Below are positions 1,500 through 26,438 of a stretch of 64,000 nucleotides of DNA, piece by piece. The position numbers and the translations under genes are program-made. Position 1 is the first letter of the stretch. Every line of letters begins with the position of its first letter. Origin of the DNA: Polychytrium aggregatum. Taxonomy: Eukaryota; Chytridiomycota; Chytridiomycetes; Polychytriales. The notes below the pieces were generated by a model that was given only the letters and a program-made list of their open reading frames with translations, ran no database searches and was not told the origin of the DNA. The stretch is from the NCBI RefSeq assembly GCF_025602895.1, contig NW_026516216.1:62001-126000 (forward strand). Reading direction: 5' to 3'.

Positions 1500-4400
1500 A
1501 TGCTCCTGTGGATCATTGTTATATCCGCCCTTGTTGGACTGCTGTCCCTCTGGTGGCTGCACCAGAAGAAGCAAGCAGGTCAGTGTCGTTGATTGCTGAA
1601 TCGATTCTGAACAATAATGGTTGTGGATTGGAGATAAACCAGGACGACTTCTCGGTAAAATGGCGATGTTGGGAATCGAACCCCCGTCATCGGAGCGATC
1701 TTGGATCGAGCCATGGATCCAGTGTGGTTCGAATTGGATTGGTTTGTCATGTGATCTGACTCTCGCTCATTCGATCCAAAGATGACACCCCCCAAGTTAA
1801 CACCAAGGAACCAAAGGATGGTCAATCCAATACCGTTAGGACCTCTAATGAAGATGAAGAGACCGAATTGACAGAGGAGTCTAAAGAATTTGATGAATTC
1901 CTGAAGAAACATCATCTATCCAAATGGAGAGAGCACTTCATCAATAATGACTACGACACCATTCGATCGGTAAGCTTGAATCGAGGCAATGCTTCGCTCC
2001 GATATCTTGTATTCATTACTTCTGCTCGCTCCACAGATCATTCATATGAGTGATGCTGAAATGGATGAAATCAACTTGAATAAAGCAACCATTGGGAAGA
2101 TCAAAGCAGCGCAACGCCTTCTCAACCTCTCGCCAATAGATTCGCAAACCGCCTCAGCCCAACATATCCTCTCCGGAAATCAGGGCAACAACGTCAAAGA
2201 GGAGGGAGATGAATCACCACAAGACAACATTCTCACAACTCCACCTCCCGAATACCAAGCCTCTGTCAACGATATCATTCAGACAGAGCCTATCGAAGCA
2301 ACCGCCTCAGACGAGGAGCCACTACGCAATACTTCGAATACGTTCCATAAATTCCTTGAGGACAACGGACTCACTAAATTCAAAGGCCGTTTTGAGGAAC
2401 GCGATTACGACACCGTCGATGTGGTAGGTATCCTTTACCATCCATAGAATCAACCAAGTGCGTTACTGACCCTTGCACTCCACAGCTCCTTGCTCTCGAT
2501 GATATCCAGATTGCCAAGGTCGGCCTGAATGATGGTGCCATCATGAAACTCAAAATTGCACAACAAAAGCATGGTTCACCCAGGCTCGATAAACCAAAGG
2601 TGTTTTCCAACGCAACGGAGCGCAAGATTGTTCCTCGTGAACATCCCTTGAGCCCAAGCCACTACGCTCCGGCAACACCCACACAGCATTGGGAGTGTCA
2701 GAACCATTATGAGAGACATGATGTATTCATCAGGTAAGCGGTGATTCGTTCGCAACCACGTCATTTCACCCAGCTAACATGTGCCCCCACAGTTACCGAG
2801 TCCGTAGTGACGCCAGCAATGCGACTGCCCTGCATGGAACCCTCGCTGTCACTCCGCGAGGCCAAATGGCACTTCATCCCTATCTCGACAGGCTCTGTCT
2901 CTGTGACGGCATGCCCTGGGAACAAGGTTTCATCAATGGTCTCTACCAATCGGACGTGATTGTCCTAGTTCTCTCCGAGGCTGGACTCGATCAAACCTAC
3001 AACGCGCACAATGAGAAAGACAACCAGTTTCTCGAGGTAAGTGCGTCTGAATGCATATAACTGGATTGTATTTGGAAACTCACCTATCCTGTGAATGCAG
3101 ATCCAACATGCTCTCAAGAGAATGAAGGACGGTGAGAAATGTGGTGAATCGGTCATCATCCAACCCATATTCATGTGGTCCACCAGAGAGTTTGATGGAC
3201 AAACACTCCACATGAAGTATTTCCCGTCGGTCAAAGAGTTCCCTGACTTCACCCCGATCCATGAAAAGAGTCCGTTGTTCGACAACAAACCAATGTCGAT
3301 CCGTGAAACCTTTACTGAGTTGATGAAGCTACAGGCCCTCGATGCTGCGGATGGAAACGCTCTCAAGAGGTGAGATCATCAAATTCACAAGTGAAACGGT
3401 TGATACAATCTCACACTATTGATATTCCACAGACTGGTCCCCAATATTCGTGAGCTCATAACAAAGACTTCCATTGCCGACAAGCAAGGCGATGTGTACA
3501 CACAAGGCGGTAGTGTCGTCCTCACCGCCGAACAAGACCACGCCTTGCGATCCCTCCTCGACCCTGTCGACTCGACCCAGGACCAGCACGATCTTGAGGA
3601 TCTGTATGTCGAGGGCACTCGTCTATGGCTGTTCGACCAAGTGGCCGACTGGGTCAACGAAGACACCAAGGACACTGTCCTGTGGGTCAATGCCGTTGCT
3701 GGTGTGGGCAAGTCTGTTGCCGCAGCCAAGCTGGCCAGCTTCCTCCGGGGCAAGAACCAGCTGGTGTCGGCGCTGTTCCTCAAGTACAACGACACCCGCA
3801 AGAGCGATCCGCGGGCCGTGCTGAGCACGATCGCATACGGCCTGTGCCAGTGGTATGCCCCGATTGGCCGCAAGCTGCTCGATGCTGGCCACTCCAAGGA
3901 CAGTCTCGACAAGATGCCCATCCCCGAGTTGTTCAAGGCCGTGATTGCCGATCCACTCGAAGCCATCGGCAAATACAGACCCAAGGGATCGGTGATGATC
4001 CTGGTGGATGCACTCGACGAGTGCTCTCCACGCGACCAGCTGCTCAGTCTGCTTGCCTGGCGCTTCGTCGAGCTGAACAAGACCCGTCCGTGGCTCAAGT
4101 TGCTGCTGACATCCCGTCCCGAGGACGACATCAAGGCAGCATTCCATGGAGTGAATGCCAAAACAATCGAGCCCTCCAGCGAGGAGAATATCGCCGACTT
4201 GAGGGTATTCATCAGGCACCGACTCACCAACGAGCACAAGGGCCTCACAGACGCCGACAGAGAACATGCCATCGAGATCATCCTCCACAACCCGGCTCAG
4301 TCGAATGAACATGGAAAGCCAGCTGATACCAATGATCCGGCTGACGATGACAAATCCAAGACATTCGTGTGGATCAACCTGATCCTTAACACGCTCAAGG

Positions 4401-7046
4401 AGCAGGCCAAGAGCGAAGCCATCACACTCACCAAGATCAGGGAGCTCAATGACAGTGCCACTGATGTCAAGCAGCTGTATGGGATCACATTCACCAAGAT
4501 CCACTCCGGGTCGAGTCGTAAGGGCGAACTGATCACCGCGATCTCGGCTATCGCCACATCGCAGACCATCCTCACACCCAATATGATTGCCGGGATCTTC
4601 TTCCGCAACGTGGCTGAGGGATATGCACTCCGCATTGTTCGCGAATGCCTGAGGAGTCTCAACTTGGTTCTCGCTCCTGGTGCCAACGGATCCACCGACG
4701 ATGGCGAGGTCAAGTTCAACCACAAGTCGGTGGCGGACTATCTCCTCGGCGACGCATCAATTGGCCACCCATGGCATGTGTCGAGCTCGTTCCACACGGT
4801 GTTTGCCAAGGGATGTCTCGGAGTGATCCTCTCGCACGAGCCAGTGATCAACATCTGCGAGATCTTCGACTTTCACGACAAGATCGCTGACCTCGAGGAC
4901 AGGGTCGCAGACAAGATCACACCGTCGCTGCGATACAGCGTCGCCCACTGGGTCACCCATCTGATTGAGGGTACCAAGGTCAATGGTGTTGAGTTGGATG
5001 GTCCCTTTGAGACACAATCCTTCGAAGAATTGGCCCCGTCTCTCACCCAATTCATGTCGAGCCATGTGTTCCACTGGCTCGAGTGTGGGTCGCTCACACA
5101 TGTGGTCAAGCCGATCATCGAGCAACTGGCTGTGCTGCGAGGTGTGATCGCCAAGGCACCCAGCACCATCATCGACGACACCACGAAGGAACTGGTCAAG
5201 GACACGTATCGATTCATCCGCGAGTTTGCCGACCCGATCATCAAGAGTGCACCACAGGTGTACAACTCGGGGTATGCATTCACACCGAAGGAGACGGCGA
5301 TCTACAAGACATATGCCGACCAACTCGAGGACAAGATCCTGTTTCTGATCACGACTGGTCCGGCACACACCTGGGATCCGTGTGAGGTGACACTCACTGG
5401 TCACTCGAGCCATGTGAAATCCGTTGCGATCTCACCCGATGGTAAGTGGATCGCCTCTGGCTCTGAGGACAAGACCATCAAGGTGTGGGATGCCACCACA
5501 GGCCAGGTGATGCACACCCTCAAGGGACACACAAACTATGTGTTCTCCGTGGCGATCTCACCCGATGGCAAGTGGATTGCCTCTGGCTCTTATGACAAGA
5601 CCATCAAGGTGTGGGATGCCACGACTGGCCAGGTGAAGCACACTCTTGAGGGGCACACAGGCGGTGTGACCTCCGTGGCGATCTCACCCGATGGCAAGTG
5701 GATTGCCTCTGGGTCTGTGGACAATACCATCAAGGTGTGGGATGCCACCACCGGCCAGGTGAAGCACACCCTCAAGGGACACACAAACTATGTGGACTCC
5801 GTGGCGATCTCACCCGATGGCAAGTGGATTGTCTCTGGCTCGGCTGACAAGACCATCAAGGTGTGGGATGCCACCACAGGCCAGGTGAAGCACACCCTCG
5901 AGGGACACACAGACAGGGTGACATCCGTGGCGATCTCACCCGATGGCAAGTGGATTGCCTCTGGGTCTGTGGACAATACCATCAAGGTGTGGGATGCCAC
6001 CACCGGCCAGTTGAAGCACACCCTCGAGGGACACACAAATTACGTGAACTCCGTGGCGATCTCATCTGATGGCAAGTGGATTGTCTCTGGCTCTTATGAC
6101 AAGACCATCAAGGTGTGGGATGCCACCACAGGCCAGGTGAAGCACACCCTCGAGGGACACACAGACAGGGTGACCTCCGTGGCGATCTCACCCGATGGCA
6201 AGTGGATTGTCTCTGGCTCTATGGACAAGACCATCAAGGTGTGGGATGCCACCACCGGCCAGTTAAAGCACACCCTCGAGGGACACACACTCTATGTGTA
6301 CTCTGTGGCGATCTCACCCGATGGCAAGTGGATTGCCTCTGGCTCTGAGGACAAGACCATCAAGGTGTGGGATGCCACCACAGGCCAGGTGAAGCACACC
6401 CTCGAGGGACACACAGACAGGGTGACATCCGTGGCGATCTCACCCGATGGCAAGTGGATTGTCTCTGGCTCTATGGACAAGACCATCAAGGTGTGGGATG
6501 CCACGACTGTCCAGGTGAAGCACACCCTCGAGGGACACACAGACTATGTGTTCTCTGTGGCGATCTCGCCCGATGGCAACTCAATTCTGTCTCGCGACGT
6601 GGGTGGCAATCAAATCCTCTGGGTCCGTCGCGGTGACGAGTGGGTTCGCTCCGACGAAGATCCCTCCAACTTTACCACCGCATCCAGCCCACATGCATCG
6701 TCCCAGTGGACCGAAATCGACCAACGAAACGCACCTCAGTGGATCCGCCATGGCAGCCACATCACCAAGGTCCCACACTCCTTATTTGGCAATTGGTACA
6801 AATGTGTCTTCACTCCATCCGGCGGGGTTGTATTTTGGTCCCATGAAACACCCTACCGTCCAGTCATCATCCTGGTAAGTCCAGCCACTTGTCACCACTA
6901 CTCCAGTCCCTCAAATAACACTCCTACCACCACAGCCAATCTACCTCAACACCCCAGAGATCCGAGCCGAGATTGCCAGATACATCGAAGCTCGACCAGC
7001 CATCACTGCCGCTTTCGAAGTGGCAAGAACAGCAGTCGATGAGTAA
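1500..7046 (+). CDS. Membrane-anchored SAM-SAM-TIR-NACHT-WD40 STAND receptor
   Basis: Eight phase-consistent exons (1500-1578, 1782-1969, 2037-2423, 2486-2733, 2793-3036, 3101-3369, 3433-6874, 6936-7046) give 1655 aa. An N-terminal hydrophobic segment (about residues 2-20) precedes HQKK and suggests a signal anchor. Two SAM domains follow (about 63-120 and 192-245), then a TIR domain starting at DVFISYR (297-303). Glu382 in NQFLEIQHAL aligns with the SARM1 catalytic glutamate. The NACHT-type ATPase has Walker A AVAGVGKS (559-566) and Walker B VDALDE (663-668). Ten WD40 repeats begin near 1124. Known family logic is that WD40 repeats sense a ligand, NACHT oligomerises, and SAM/TIR signal, the TIR possibly by NAD cleavage. 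That this gene works so is inference. TATA at 1440. The large exon is intact, with no sign of decay. Confidence 0.9.
5399..6532 (+). repeat. Nine near-identical 126-bp WD40-coding tandem repeats
   Basis: Nine head-to-tail units of exactly 126 bp encode 42-residue WD40 repeats sharing SVAISPDGKWI and TIKVWDATT. A tenth, diverged unit follows from 6533. Differences cluster at few codons: the two or three residues after GHT (NY, GG, DR, LY, DY), the residue before SVAIS, Ala or Val after KWI, the residue after SGS (E, Y, V, A, M) and Val or Leu after TGQ. This is the pattern of high-internal-conservation WD40 arrays in fungal HET-E/HNWD receptors, which evolve by unequal exchange. Confidence 0.93.
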
Positions 7047-20223: not shown

Positions 20224-22047
20224 ATGTCGTCGCAGCTGTTCAGCGTCTCGGGCAAGGTCGTCTTGGTGACGGGAGGATCCAGAGGGTATGTCTCCGCCTC
20301 CGCCGCACTCGCCCTCCTCATCGCCATGCACACAGGCCTGGTTCCGAACGGGCGGACGTGCGGCCAGTTTGGATCCGTCGATAGCGTCCTCACACCGCGT
20401 CCTTGCCGCTGAGCCCAACCCGTCTATTTGCCATCGCTGGCCAACAGGATCGGACTTATGATCGCCGAGGTGAGGTCTCTGGGCGTGTGTGTGTCGGCTC
20501 GAGCGCCGCTGACCGAGGAGACGCTGACCCTGAATCTTGCATCATCTACCAGGGCTTCGTCGATGCGGGCGCCAAAGTGTATATCTCCTCTCGCTCCAAA
20601 TCAGTCTGCGATGCTGAAGCGGCCAGGCTCAGTGCAAAAGGTTCGGACGTTGCGTTGCGCACCTCGACTCGATGGGATATGCGGCGGCCGCTTGGTCTTT
20701 GCCTCGCGTGTCCGGAACGCCGATCTTATATCCCCTCATCGTGTATTCCCAGGACCCGGCAAGTGCATCAGCATCCCGGCCGATCTCCAAAAGCTGGAAG
20801 AGGTGCACAGGCTGGTGGCCGAGATCGCTAAGAGAGAACCATGTAAGCCGCATGCATGCTGCCCCAACATACTGCTTTCTCTCATGGGCACACGCTTTCG
20901 TCCTGGCCGCTGTCTCTGATGGCTGTATGTCTGGCGTCATCGCTCCGGCCAGACCTGCACGTCCTCGTCAACAATGCCGGCGCAACCTGGGGCGAGGACA
21001 TCTCCAGCTACCCCGACGAGGGATTTGAAAAGGTCCTCAGCCTCAACCTCAAGCGCATCTTCAGCCTGATCCAGGCGTGAGTATTTCCTTGCTTCTTCAC
21101 GTGCCGCCACACAGACACAAACAAAACGCACCTGTCAAGCCAGCATGATCTGTTTCTCCGCGCCGTCCGTTCGCCCGTGAGAATCTGGGGACGGCCTCGT
21201 TGTCGTCCGCATCGATTGGGGCATTCGTTCTGCAGCTCTCAGCTGCACCAGCTGGTCGTGCGCTCAGTACAGGCTGGGCCCCCGTGCAATCGAGCCATAC
21301 ATCTGTAAGCTGACAAGGGATCTGCTCCATCACCCTTGAATCACCCTTGGCAAATACCCTGTGGTGTTCAAGATCCCTGCCTCTGCTCGAGGCCGCCGCC
21401 GTTCCATTGGATCCAGCACGCATCATCAACATCGGTTCTGTTGATGGTAAGGCATGCGCTTTGAGTATCCCGGTTATCTGCCCATGGCCCATCGCCAATG
21501 CGTGTGCACCGCCGTCGACGCTTGGACAGCTTCCCCTATCGACCAGACCTGCAGACTGAGCCGCCACAACTCAATAGGCATCCATGTCCCGCTCCTGGAG
21601 ACGTATGCCTACTCCGCCTCCAAGGCTGGTCTCCACCACTTGAGTCGCCATCTGGCCAGCAAGTTGGGCTCGCGATACATCACCGTCAACAATATCGCCC
21701 CTGGCCCCTTCGAATCCAAGATGATGAAGGCCACGCTTGAAAGCGCCAAGGATCAGATTGTGGCCTCGGTGCCGCTCGGTCGCATTGGATCGCCCGCCGA
21801 TATGGCCGGAGTCTGCATCTATTTGTCCAGCAAGGCCGGAGCATACGTCAACGGTGCGTTCTCAGCCTGTTTCGTGCCGATATGCCCACTGCCGCGAGCG
21901 ATACAGTGGGCTTGAACAAGCTTGTACCTGGCTGCTCCGTTTTCTGAATTCGGTTGGCACCATGCTCACTTTGACCCATACCATATTCCAGGGGCTACGA
22001 TCGCGGTCGACGGCGGCCTCCTGGTTCATGCCAAGAGCCACATCTAG
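20224..22047 (+). CDS. Short-chain dehydrogenase/reductase (RhlG/FabG-like)
   Basis: Eight phase-consistent exons (20224-20285, 20448-20469, 20553-20640, 20753-20842, 20953-21076, 21373-21446, 21578-21853, 21992-22047) give 263 aa, the usual length for classical SDRs. Visible motifs are the NAD(P)-binding TGGSRGIG, the NNAG motif, catalytic Ser151 (INIGS), Tyr165 and Lys169 (YSASK), and the C-terminal GATIAVDGG. The sequence style, with IPADL and LVNNAGATWGED, recalls RhlG-type 3-oxoacyl-carrier-protein reductases, but SDR substrates are not safely read from sequence. The second exon is only 22 nt and carries most of the glycine motif. The donor of exon 3 (G then GTTCGG) is weak but required by phase. 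Confidence 0.88.
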
Positions 22048-22166
22048 TTCAATCGAAGAGATTTGATATGATCCTTTCGTCTGCGGCATTTTGGAAAGTC
22101 GCATCGGGCGTCCTGTATGTCTTGGGGGATGGCGCCATTCTCGTTTTTGATTACAGGCAATCCAAT
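22048..22166. other. Short gap between the dehydrogenase gene and the element
   Basis: The 119 bp between the dehydrogenase stop codon and the left inverted repeat of the mobile element hold no gene. They presumably contain the dehydrogenase 3' UTR, so the element inserted just downstream of, or inside, that UTR. Confidence 0.5.
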
Positions 22167-22181
22167 AAAAAACGGGACACC
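22167..22181 (+). repeat. Left terminal inverted repeat
   Basis: AAAAAACGGGACACC, the exact reverse complement of 25856-25870. It is preceded by CCAAT, giving a TA at 22166-22167 as a possible target-site dinucleotide. Confidence 0.85.
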
Positions 22182-22237
22182 CGGGTTTTTGACCATTCAT
22201 CGAATATTTTGTTACCCAATGTTATCGCGCGCTGGCC

Positions 22238-23170
22238 ATGACCATTCGCCACACATCCGACTTTCGCACCGCCACATTGCGATGCTACGCCCTCATCCAT
22301 AGCCTGCGTAAGGTCGCCTCCATATTCAGTGTATCCAAGAGCACCATCCATCGATGGCACCGAGGATGCAAGCTGGATGACCCATCCCGGGTCCCAGCTC
22401 GCAGATCCACTTTCTTCGAGCAGGCATGTCCAGTCATTCGCACCCTGATTGAACAGGACCCGTTCCAGACTGGTCCTGTGTTGCGGTGCAAGCTCGAGTC
22501 CATCCTCCAGAGGAAAGTATCACTCTCACTCTGCCACACTGCCATCCACCGAGCAGGTCTCTCACACAAGAGGGCAACACACCTCTACAAGTCCAAGCGA
22601 CTGGATGAGCGAGTGGCACAGTTCAGGGACCAAGTCCACTCCATCGACCCACGGCGGCTCGTTTTTGTCGATGAGACAGGGATCAGGAAATCCATTTTCC
22701 CTCTTTACGGATACTCACCGAAGGGTGCTCCGCTTCGCCAGCGCAATCACATGAAACACAAGTCTGTCTCGGCTGCATTTGCCATCAACCACTCTGGTGT
22801 GCTGCATCGCATGTACATCCCCACATCATTCAAGACACACTCGATGGTCGAGTTCTTTGAGCGAGCGAGCTTCCCAGACGACTCTGTGATTGTGATGGAC
22901 AATCTCAGCATGCACAAGACAATGGCTGTCTTGGACTGCATCGAGCGCCGAGGATGGTCAGTGATCTTCACCCCACCTGCCTCGCCCGACTTCAATCCCA
23001 TCGAGAACTTCTTTGGGATTGTGAAGCATCAGTACAGGAAGGCAGCAGCGCTGAATGCGTCCGAGGGGTTCAGAGTCGGGATGGTGACCCTGTTTGAGTC
23101 TGCCGTTCGGAGGGTGCTTCCAGATGTCTTCCCACGGCTGATTGAGCGAGCGATGCGCTTCTGGGGTTGA
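22238..23170 (+). CDS. IS630/Tc1-mariner DDE transposase
   Basis: An intronless 310-aa frame. Residues 1-110 hold two helix-turn-helix-like segments (KVASIFSVSKSTIHRWHRG, then CHTAIHRAGLSHKRA) that would bind the inverted repeats. The catalytic core shows FVDETGI (Asp145), IVMDNLSMHK (Asp221) and NPIENFFG (Glu256). The 34 residues between the second Asp and the Glu give the DD34E signature of the Tc1 group. The function is cut-and-paste excision and insertion at TA. Length and all three acidic residues are intact, so it may be active. It lies 56 bp inside the left inverted repeat, and its stop is 249 bp before the Fanzor ATG. Confidence 0.93.
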   Translation: MTIRHTSDFRTATLRCYALIHSLRKVASIFSVSKSTIHRWHRGCKLDDPSRVPARRSTFFEQACPVIRTLIEQDPFQTGPVLRCKLESILQRKVSLSLCHTAIHRAGLSHKRATHLYKSKRLDERVAQFRDQVHSIDPRRLVFVDETGIRKSIFPLYGYSPKGAPLRQRNHMKHKSVSAAFAINHSGVLHRMYIPTSFKTHSMVEFFERASFPDDSVIVMDNLSMHKTMAVLDCIERRGWSVIFTPPASPDFNPIENFFGIVKHQYRKAAALNASEGFRVGMVTLFESAVRRVLPDVFPRLIERAMRFWG

Positions 23171-23287
23171 GTTCCCTCCAATCAAGCCGCCATTTTCACG
23201 CTCAAATCCCTGGCTTCAACCTCTCGGCGATTTTTGAACAGGGTCACTTCCCCAACCAGCCCGCGCAGACGGGTTCCTGCTCTCGGG

Positions 23288-23294
23288 TATAAAT
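23288..23294 (+). promoter_or_regulatory. TATA box of the Fanzor gene
   Basis: tataaat lies 126 bp upstream of the Fanzor ATG inside the gap between the two element genes, followed by a pyrimidine-rich leader. This suggests that the Fanzor has its own promoter rather than being read through from the transposase. Confidence 0.5.
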
Positions 23295-23419
23295 GCCACA
23301 CCTTCGTCCTGCTGCTTTCTTCCCTCACCTCGCCTTGATCTGATCATCGCGCTATTGTACGATAAAAAAGTCTCACCTCTGACCAGTACCACTGGCAGGC
23401 ATCCAGCATCCTCTGCCCC

Positions 23420-25785
23420 ATGCCTCCGAAGCGTAAGGGTACCGGTGATGGCCAGCCTCGGCCACCCAGGCCCAAGAAAGCCAAGTCACAGTCGGAGCCT
23501 GTCTCTGGTTCGTATTCTGATCCCACGCATGCTTGGTCGTCTGTTGCTCCGTCGCTCACCACCACTGCTTCTGCAGATCCAATGGATGTCGATCCCACCG
23601 AGCCTGGTCCCTCATCTGGTCCTGTCAAGCGATGTCCCAAGTGCGATGGCACCGATCATCAGCGAAGCAACACCAACAGGTGTCCCAAATACCGGCCCCT
23701 CAAGAGTTCTGTCGTCCCACTCGTGGATGGAAGGTCATCCGCCCCTCAGTTCAGCTGCTTCAAGCAGACGATGATGGCTGTTGTCTCAATCCCGCTCTCC
23801 GCGACAAGATCCAGGCCACCGTCGAGGCCATGACCCAGATCCAGTTCGAGGCATCCAGGCTGCTCAACCTGCATATCCTCCGGTGCATCGAGCAGGATAT
23901 TCCCATCCCCGTCATCTCCAAGTCCACCCCTGCTTTCATCCGCCAATGCTTCACGATTGTCGAGGCCGATGCCCTCTCGACGTCCAGGGATACCAAGAAA
24001 TACAACGAGCATCTGGTCGCTTCCTTTCGCGACTACCAGACCACTCGGCACGCAGACCTGCCTCCGGCCCCTTGTCTGCCTGATGGTGCTCACAGTCAGC
24101 TTCTCACACTGGCTGTCAATGCCTATGCCACCAACTGCACCACCCACCTCGACCTGGCCTACTGGCGACTCCTTCGTCGCTTTTGTGCTGCTGTCTTCCC
24201 TGCCAACAAGCATAAGCACGAAGCCATCGAGGCCTGTCTCGAGCTCTTCGAGAAACCAGGGCAGACTCCACCCAAGGCCGATCTCGAGTTCCTCTATCCC
24301 GACTTTGGCCACATCCTGGACGAGTTTCGGTACAGCAACGACCAGGACCGCTTCCGGGCCCTCCATCGCCTCTCACACCATGTGAGAATCCTCGCCCGAG
24401 ACAAGATGGTCGACAATGTCCACAAGTGGATCGACTGTGACATGCCCGCCCTCCGAGTCACCGAGCTGCAGCGCCAGGCCAAGCTGGACGAGCTCACTAC
24501 CCAAGGCATTCCCTCCGACGACAAGAGGTTCACCACGGCCAAGTCTGAGCTCGGCACCACCAAGTCCAAGATCAACAAGCTGGCATCCAGGATCAACTGG
24601 GCCCTCAAGCAGCTCGCTCTGGACACTCCTCCGGCCGTGTGCACGATAGTTCCTCTATGTACTGCGAAGGCCAAGTATGTCAAGATTGACACGGTCACTC
24701 TTTGGAATCTCCTTGGTCCAAAGAAGCGCCTTGACCTCACCAGGGACAAGCTCAAGGAAGAAGGTGAGGACGGTGTCAACAACCAGGATCGTCTCTGGCG
24801 CAGTTGCTTCAAGCTGCGTAGTTCCCTCTTCCGTGACCGGGATATCAATCACAAGCTGTTCAACTACGATATCAGCACCGATGGCATTGGATGCACCATC
24901 GGTCTCGTCAAGTTTGTGCCTCGAACCGATCACACCGAGACCATCGAGCCTCCTCCGACTGCCGAGCAGCGCATCCAGGCCCACATCGGCGACCCAGACC
25001 CCGATCGCACCACTTGGATTGGCATCGATCCTGGAGTCGGCTCCATCTTCACGGCGGTCATCCAAGCACCGGGCCACCAAGACGAGGTGGTCTCATTCTC
25101 CAATGGCCACTACCAGCACATGTGTGGCCATACGTCCAACACCAAGTGGCACAATATCATGAAGTATCGACTCAGCATCGAGACCTGGATGTCGACCACC
25201 CCCTCGCCCAAGGTGTCGTCCTCGGAAGCCTTCAAGGTCCATCTCACCCATGTCCTGCAACCGGAGCTGCGAGTGCAGCTCGACTTCCACCTTGGCAAGA
25301 AGGCCCGTCACCATCGATTCACGGGCCACAGGAGACGCCAAGTGGCCGTCGACAGGATGTGCAAGGCCGTCCTGAAGCACGCCCCGATACGGACCGATGT
25401 GGTGATCGCCTTTGGCAATGCGTCATGGCGGCAAGGCAAGGGCTATGCATCCAGCCCTCGGAGGCAGCGGTTTGCTCAGTACTTTGAGCAATTCGAGCAC
25501 CACCGACGCCGTCCCAATCACCATCACGGAAGCGTCAAGGTGGCCTCGACGAACGAGTTCAACACCTCGCAAGTGTGCTCCAAGTGCCTGGAGCCAGTTC
25601 GGTTGGAAGGACTCGATGCGCCCAGTGTTGCGAATTCCCACTTTGTCAGGAGCTGCAAGAATCCCAGCTGCCGGACAGTGTGGAATCGCGACGTCAATGC
25701 GGCGCGCAACATGATCACAGTGTGCAGGTCGATTGTGGAGATCGGAGAGCGACCGGTGGTCTTCACTCGGAGGCTGCCAAAGTGA
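23420..25785 (+). CDS. Fanzor, eukaryotic TnpB-like RNA-guided nuclease
   Basis: The ATG at 23420 opens a basic tail (PPKRK, PRPKKAK; likely nuclear signal) and a zinc-knuckle-like segment (RCPKCDG...NRCPKYRP). The rest is in another frame, entered through a probable intron 23706-23767 (or acceptor at 23764), giving about 767 aa; a frameshift is the alternative. The C-terminal RuvC core has Asp in IGIDPGVGS (25027-25029) and Asp in WNRDVNAARN (25690-25692). The zinc-ribbon cysteines are CSKC and CKNPSC. At the RuvC-II position the sequence reads VVIAFGNASW without Glu, while Glu in TNEFNTS (25555-25557) sits at the alternative Fanzor site. Known Fanzors use an RNA from the element end to cut DNA; activity here is inferred. 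Confidence 0.92.
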
Positions 25786-25871
25786 TCTGTTTTATTTCTT
25801 GTGGCTTTGCTTGACGCAAGCACAGCACATACTACACGTTCATGGAAACGGCTGTGGTGTCCCGTTTTTTT
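25786..25871 (+). ncRNA. Candidate Fanzor guide-RNA scaffold region (right end)
   Basis: In characterised Fanzor and TnpB loci the guide RNA spans the 3' end of the nuclease gene and the right end of the element, with the guide segment reading into the flank. Here only 86 bp separate the stop codon from the end of the right inverted repeat, so the scaffold would lie here, possibly starting within the last codons. Small self-complementary pieces are visible (for example gcttgacgcaagc, 25808-25820). There is no direct evidence of transcription. Confidence 0.35.
25856..25870 (-). repeat. Right terminal inverted repeat
   Basis: GGTGTCCCGTTTTTT on the + strand matches the left repeat exactly in inverse orientation; one further T follows at 25871. 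An AATAAA hexamer lies just outside the element (25875-25880). Confidence 0.85.
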
Positions 25872-26438
25872 CTGAATAAAGTGTACATTCGTGTCCACCA
25901 CAATCGCCATATGGGTAGATTGCCCACGGCTCGGTTCAAAGCAGCTGGGAGCAATTGTGCCCAGCCGGAGCATTGTCGTCTGCGATATGTCTGCTCGCCC
26001 TCACATATTTCTGGCCGTGATTGGTATGAATGAGCGGACCCGGCAGACGGCTATCGTTAGTCGCAGACCAAGCGAGTCCAGCGGTGGCCGAACAATGGCT
26101 GCTCCGAGGTCGTGCATTTGTCAAGCCAAGGCTGTGAGACCACCAAGAAGCTCATTCTCCATACGATCTTCACAAAATCTTGAATTGCCAAGCGGGCGAC
26201 TTGTCGGATATCGAGTCACTTGCCCGTGGCACCGATAGCCCCCCAAGGACGAATCGCTATCTGTGCAGTCGCCACTATAACGCTCAGCGAGCGAGAAGGT
26301 TCCAGTCGTCCCACAACAGCAGCTCGACCAACGGCGACATTCACCTCAAATCACACTCACATCAGTATACCAGGCCTTACGAACCCGCCCGCATACACAG
26401 GCCCGACTGTGCCCCCTCTGAACTTTGGACGCAAGAGC
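25872..26438. other. Intergenic region upstream of the membrane protein gene
   Basis: The 567 bp between the element and the next ATG hold no gene. They must contain the promoter of the downstream gene. A tataacgctc stretch at about 26276-26285 is the nearest TATA-like sequence but is imperfect. Confidence 0.4.

Follow-up and report, generated by a model that had tools for sequence, protein, structure and literature searches.

The closest described relatives of the element reported here are transposons that carry a Fanzor1 nuclease. SPu-1 of Spizellomyces punctatus is a Fanzor1 element with a single open reading frame (ORF), as its entry in PMC3627910 describes it, and in the portions of Saito et al. 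2023 (PMC10432273) that treat SPu-1 no transposase was found between its repeats. According to the same portions, the target-adjacent motif (TAM) of its nuclease, SpuFz1, is CATA, that is, the CA lying outside the left repeat followed by TA; short copies, termed ghosts, exist as well, and SpuFz1 is described with a 14- to 15-nucleotide (nt) extension. A transposase and Fanzor1 occur together in the Mariner elements PGv-1 and PUl-1, as listed by Bao and Jurka 2013 (PMC3627910). Here we analyze a stretch of 64,000 nt from Polychytrium aggregatum (contig NW_026516216.1, positions 62,001 to 126,000; referred to below as the window). Its element at 22154-25883 belongs to a Tc1/mariner-IS630-type transposon family that is present in many copies and encodes both a DD34E transposase and a Fanzor1-type nuclease. 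The pairing of the two proteins in Mariner elements is already known from Bao and Jurka 2013, and the present family is a new addition to that kind; no description of this family was found among open-access literature titles.

As far as the cited sections describe SPu-1, the two families are alike in having a Fanzor1 gene between inverted repeats of about 30 nt, flanking TA dinucleotides (target-site duplications in SPu-1, putative ones here), ghosts that retain both ends, and conserved bases outside the left end. Those bases differ, being CA in SPu-1, which together with TA makes CATA, and WT here (W, A or T), where WT plus TA is a predicted TAM. Unlike SPu-1, the present unit contains a DD34E transposase, and similarity between SpuFz1 and the present Fanzor protein is seen in the C-terminal domain only. 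The balance of short and full copies also differs: 134 ghosts to 19 full copies are given for SPu-1, versus 6 ghosts to 44 full-length end pairs here (100 right ends listed). With PGv-1 and PUl-1, as these are summarized in their source, the family shares a Mariner-type transposase and a Fanzor1 in one TA-flanked unit. PGv-1, however, is described as a single-copy element with a third protein (GIY-YIG), whereas the present family has more than 100 copies, ghosts and a swapped second Fanzor. The arrangement further recalls the IS200/IS605 and IS607 TnpB elements, in which an RNA-guided nuclease stands beside a transposase and the guide is expected from the flank, but the relevant passages of PMC3627910 and PMC10432273 give the transposase of those elements as a tyrosine (HUH) or serine enzyme, and the one found here is a DDE enzyme.

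A first-pass annotation of the window had placed a Fanzor and a DD34E transposase inside perfect 15-bp inverted repeats. The two genes do form one unit and the repeats are real, lying at 22167-22181 (AAAAAACGGGACACC) and, as the reverse complement, at 25856-25870, but the proposed ends fell 13 nt short on each side. We replaced them with 28-nt ends after comparison with other copies in the host genome, because those copies share sequence farther out at each end. At the left boundary TA is followed by CAGGCAATCCAATAAAAAACGGGACACC, and at the right boundary CCCGTTTTTTTCTGAATAAAGTG is followed by TA; beyond these points the flanks diverge. The terminal inverted repeats are imperfect: a count by eye gives matches at 21 of 28 positions, of which the perfect 15 nt make up the inner portion. 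TA follows 81 of the 84 distinct right ends listed and stands before left ends as well. The window's own inner right repeat, GTGGTGTCCCG, is a minority form, present in 3 of the 30 Fanzor copies read (loci L009, L029 and L038), with TATATTGTCCCG in most of the others.

We searched the host genome, 64.7 Mb in 418 contigs, for further copies. The exact 15-mer occurs 414 times and a reversed-pattern control not once, and within the window a chance expectation of 0.06 such matches (at up to two mismatches) compares with two perfect repeats seen. The transposase search returned at least 129 matches, 88 to 100% identical (best 128 of 538 candidates scored), and the Fanzor search at least 60, all that were scored (best 60 of 1,478 candidates), so that the other copies of the ends and of both proteins, which the annotation had named as a check, do exist. 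A right-end pattern of 23 exact bases plus flank, its last flank place excluding one letter, was found 169 times. Three complementary left-end patterns gave 225 and 29 sites with T before TA and 32 without. For 53 of the 100 right ends listed, a partner was found among the listed left ends, and the spacings are 3.39 to 3.79 kb (44 pairs), 283 to 385 bp (6), 1.11 kb (2) and 3.18 kb (1). In the sole short copy read, ghost L005, some 100 nt of the left end are followed by the Fanzor 3' end and the right end. Near-identical contig pairs are frequent, and the nine pairs compared have an insertion in common within each pair and are 97.3 to 99.9% identical; copy counts therefore include alleles or duplicated contigs. 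These near-identical stretches resemble a partly separated diploid assembly.

The transposase, intact in the window copy, matches DDE_3 (E 2.7e-24) and the IS630 transposase (E 3.5e-36). Its catalytic residues are D145, D221 and E256, and 34 residues separate the last two, as the designation DD34E requires; a DD34E transposase of the IS630/DDE_3 family, terminal inverted repeats and a TA target-site duplication are what characterize the Tc1/mariner-IS630 group. Of the 52 transposase loci, in which a few elements appear twice, 29 have the full length and no more than one stop, 27 of them none at all. A C-terminal deletion just past the catalytic glutamate (about 23015-23165 of the window) is common to the transposases of many Fanzor copies, and several elements with this deletion still have an open Fanzor.

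The second gene of the window matches the TnpB/Cas12f zinc-ribbon domain (E 6e-9) and its ORF ends at 25785. The break in frame suspected near its 5' end is real. The copy on contig C201 has the same break, so it was passed on in one duplication or jump at the least. With its Fanzor broken in this way the window copy is not the complete autonomous unit for which it had been named a good candidate, but other copies of the family have both genes open, in at least three elements (L016/L047, L021/L061 and L022/L049). We read the 30 Fanzor and 30 transposase loci that scored best against the window proteins, and their intactness and similarity are biased accordingly. Nineteen of these Fanzors are open from an MPPKRK-type start to the stop, two (L015 and L038) keep the frame but contain one stop each, eight have frame shifts, and L023 is without the start context.

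Intact Fanzor copies encode 790 amino acids (aa). The published Fanzor/TnpB motif, D-X(125,275)-[TS][TS]XX-[C4 zinc finger]-X(5,50)-RD (from the section of PMC3627910 that defines it), is found in the intact copy L020 as D539, T718-S719, C722/C725/C748/C753 and R759-D760, with counted gaps of 178 and 5 residues. The same protein carries IDPG at 538-541 and STDG at 488-491, and so has both marks that the pertinent part of PMC10711439 gives for Fanzor1, DPG in RuvC-I and TDG in the WED domain. When a C-terminal profile built from four copies together with a relative at 68% identity was compared with Protein Data Bank (PDB) chains, SpuFz1 (8gkh, S. punctatus) ranked first (E 6.3e-4), with TranC at E 0.019 to 0.020 and the G. 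theta Fanzor1 fourth (E 0.028). The full-length profile returned SpuFz1 alone (E 0.15) and a single-sequence search TranC only (E 0.4 and 0.51), and in the PDB profile searches the N-terminal half matched no solved structure. No viral relatives were found in IMG/VR with peptide patterns of the window protein, which reach close relatives only, and phage records held no relatives of the window Fanzor.

Table 1. Features of the element and its flanks, in window coordinates.
Feature	Position	Strand	Basis and remarks
ATTA: WT of the left flank with the TA target; candidate TAM in the empty allele	22150..22153	+	T at -1 in 60/61, W at -2 in 51/61; TAM role predicted
Left TA, putative target-site duplication	22152..22153	.	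Copy comparison; no empty site found at 14 loci
Left terminal inverted repeat, 28 nt	22154..22181	+	Copy comparison, genome counts
DD34E IS630/Tc1-mariner transposase, 310 aa, intact	22238..23170	+	ORF, domain matches, catalytic residues, copies
Fanzor1-type RNA-guided nuclease gene (predicted), frame-broken near 5' end	23420..25785	+	In frame mainly over 23743-25785; D, E, D and C4 zinc ribbon retained
Putative omega-RNA scaffold	25796..25885	+	Predicted hairpins 25800-25831 and 25833-25885; low diversity; retained in ghost L005
Right terminal inverted repeat, 28 nt, AATAAA inside on + strand	25856..25883	-	Copy comparison
Right TA, putative target-site duplication	25884..25885	.	Copy comparison
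Predicted guide, in flanking DNA reached by read-through beyond the right end	25886..25900	+	Inferred from SpuFz1

Selection on the two proteins was assessed in 15 of the 30 Fanzor copies (those of a single length, after removal of duplicates) and 23 of the 52 transposase loci, against 300 permutations that preserved base changes. For variants present in at least two copies, the ratio of nonsynonymous to synonymous changes (N/S) was 0.83 in the Fanzor (2.69 expected) and 0.57 in the transposase (2.78 expected), in both cases below all 300 permutations. Singletons gave a weaker signal in both genes: in the Fanzor N/S was 1.31 versus 2.49 expected, still below all permutations, and in the transposase 1.12 versus 2.21 expected, above the permutation minimum of 1.04. 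Because N/S lies under the permutation expectation, we conclude that both proteins were constrained in the lineages that spread.

The family also carries a second kind of Fanzor. L063 (C58:76678-80604) starts with a window-type left end and transposase gene, which together are 96.5% identical in DNA, and its likeness to the window family breaks off a few bases short of the transposase stop. The Fanzor behind it is a different one, with identities of 31% and 39% over the two alignable parts. Searching with a 138-aa piece of this second Fanzor gave at least 69 matches at 71 to 100% identity (best 150 of 340 candidates scored), and the remaining 81 of the 150 lay at 41 to 46%, many of them at places of the window Fanzor. 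The second Fanzor stands behind 11 of 128 transposase copies, always with 582 to 584 nt between the matches, and a listed copy of the first stands behind 59 of the 128. To judge by these alignments, the presence of deeply different Fanzors under one type of transposase is an apparent cassette exchange. Many copies of the second Fanzor family have open frames of 800 to 1,000 aa. Relics of further Fanzor-type sequences lie beside window-family copies (L032:3668-4207; L048/L064 at about 1241-1389; L011; L007), with diverged right ends and 66 to 78% identity in parts. At L011 the right TA adjoins the end of another Fanzor-type element, and several further right flanks start with TACAG; insertion at the ends of related elements may have been repeated.

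Left flanks of the family share bases beyond the TA. We reduced 78 left flanks to 61 distinct ones and 100 right flanks to 84, setting aside 3 of the latter without TA. T precedes the TA in 60 of 61 distinct left flanks, compared to 13.5% of the TA sites in the window (p 3.6e-51), and A or T occupies position -2 in 51 of 61, compared to 46% of window TTA sites (p 1.7e-9). An earlier, locus-derived set had T in 34 of 36 left flanks. The mirror base, A after the right TA, was seen in 15 of 81 distinct flanks versus 13.5% (p 0.19). Since this base is not enriched, the T of the left-flank motif is oriented. Within contigs C1-C159, whose lists of sites are exhaustive for all three left-end patterns, T was counted ahead of 118 of the 135 left ends; among full copies with paired ends the figure is 42 of 46, and among ghosts 10 of 12. 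We predict that W-T-TA is the TAM of the Fanzor, because SpuFz1 elements have CA outside the left repeat and CATA as their TAM.

The right end is the candidate source of a guide-bearing omega-RNA. In the second of its two predicted hairpins, the right inverted repeat and TA pair with a stretch about 45 nt farther inside. Compared with shuffled sequences, the fold had z scores of -1.5 in the window, -2.3 in L024, -0.3 in L035 and -0.6 in the diverged right end of L048, and the controls scored +1.3 (intergenic part) and +1.6 (left end). By region, nucleotide diversity (pi) is lowest in the last 185 nt of the Fanzor gene (0.015) and the next 100 nt (0.028), compared to 0.035 to 0.048 elsewhere in the Fanzor gene and to values in the transposase and intergenic part that are inflated by alignment around deletions. 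Equally low 75-nt windows (about 0.008) lie within the Fanzor gene at 23727-23876 and 24402-24476. Rfam gave no match at E up to 1 within 21900-26200. By eye, one hairpin is common to the window family and a second family, fam2 (L048), which is a hint only; the program folds fam2 otherwise (z -0.6). A closing stem of the predicted RNA that had seemed common to the right ends of a third, fam3 (L032, L011), was dropped: by eye, L011 is without it. On the coding strand AATAAA occupies 25875-25880, 3 nt inside the right end, and it is present in 26 of 27 distinct right ends under a search pattern that fixed its first three letters. The diverged right end of L048 has AAGAAA instead, and the left repeat has an AATAAA of its own on the + strand, but without an inverted counterpart. 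Processing by the host polyadenylation machinery, with cleavage at the right end, could define the 3' end of a guide within the flank.

Our best explanation of the whole, which we hold to be probable though well short of secure, is a mobile unit with an omega-RNA at its right end, W-T-TA as TAM and a Fanzor that cuts the empty allele. The transposase would insert the element into a TA. The right end would then be transcribed as an omega-RNA whose scaffold would include the right inverted repeat and whose guide would be the right flank. Loaded with this RNA, the Fanzor would cut the empty allele, where a W-T-TA TAM would directly precede the guide-matched flank, and repair from the occupied copy would restore or spread the element. 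The occupied site would be spared, because its right end reads TGTA and not WTTA, and the element would in this way avoid cutting itself. From the window copy itself only transposase could come; any Fanzor would have to be provided by other copies.

Several observations weigh against this explanation, starting with the right-end fold, which is only moderately better than shuffles. An oriented target preference of the transposase would yield an identical flank motif: the inverted repeats differ at 7 of 28 positions (by eye), all outside the inner 15 nt, so that insertion could be held to one orientation, with the Fanzor otherwise employed or only weakly helping. Such an origin of W-T-TA is a serious possibility, if in our judgment the less probable one. 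It would fit the second base past the right TA, which is A or T in 51 of 81 flanks versus 44% of the mirrored background (p 4e-4), a weak mirror of the left -2 position such as a transposase preference would give. It would also fit the T kept in 10 of 12 ghosts and in 6 of 10 listed second-Fanzor copies, although the one ghost read, L005, retains the Fanzor right end, and ghosts are no proven Fanzor-free control. Looser left-end patterns, moreover, give T in 254 of 286 cases, weaker than 60 of 61. Mariner target preferences, on the other hand, are usually palindromic, while here one orientation dominates. T is also rarer with the second Fanzor in the complete subset (C1-C159), at 4 of 8 versus 36 of 40 with the window's Fanzor (Fisher p 0.018), in a comparison whose eight second-Fanzor elements are few and perhaps not independent; over all contigs, with an incomplete list of T sites, the counts are 41 of 50 versus 6 of 10 (p 0.20). 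The frequency of T by Fanzor type leans toward a Fanzor-linked motif without settling the matter.

The outcome at the insertion sites also weighs against this explanation. Of the two signs of movement that the first-pass annotation had looked to, the putative TA duplications stand on both sides, but joined-flank queries (best 40 of 471 candidates scored) found an empty site at none of 14 loci; a full empty site should, we infer, outscore every listed match. At 8 of the 14 loci one or both flanks have a match at a second place in the genome, and at 6 of these 8 both flanks do, an insertion apart; the left flank of the window element has no second copy in the host genome. The family did spread in the past, and recent movement may have occurred; present-day movement is unproven, since no empty site was found at the 14 loci. 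Both genes might, then, be decaying passengers of a dead family, left by an old amplification with nothing moving now. The missing empty sites and second flank matches speak for this, as do the median identity between copies (with allele pairs included, 96.6% for the transposase side and 95.9% for that of the Fanzor), the broken window Fanzor and the C-terminal deletion in many transposases. We nevertheless consider it unlikely: fully open frames are found in 19 of the 30 Fanzor copies and 27 of the 52 transposase loci, a sample chosen for its likeness to the window; purifying selection is seen on both genes; and the closest separate insertions, L045 and L046 on C8, are 99.6% identical over 2.5 kb with unrelated left flanks, the next pair being at 97.6%. 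L045 and L046 (C8:65964-77533) are inverted relative to each other and about 7 kb apart, and the left tip of L045 is altered. That the repeats and the gene pair merely came together by chance, with no mobile unit, has next to no probability and is already refuted by the 0.06 chance matches expected in the window, the 414 genomic 15-mers and the 44 full-length end pairs.

Elsewhere in the window, a large ORF at 3419-7042 has repeated WD40-type units and perhaps encodes a NACHT-WD40 protein, as judged by eye.

The biological role of Fanzor is stated as unknown in the part of Saito et al. 2023 (PMC10432273) that addresses it. Tentatively, and aware that the suggestion could well prove wrong, we propose that the W-T-TA flank may be a population-level footprint of the Fanzor. 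Of the insertions into TA, chiefly those with the left end next to the TAM would be kept, because only their own guide RNA would target the empty allele, and the family would be a eukaryotic homing-type transposon in which a cut-and-paste transposase makes the jump, the Fanzor does the copying and Fanzor cassettes pass between elements under one transposase. With a transposase and a Fanzor in one unit, more than 100 copies, open copies among them, ghosts and two different Fanzors, the family constitutes a natural experiment on the role of Fanzor in copying and on its TAM.

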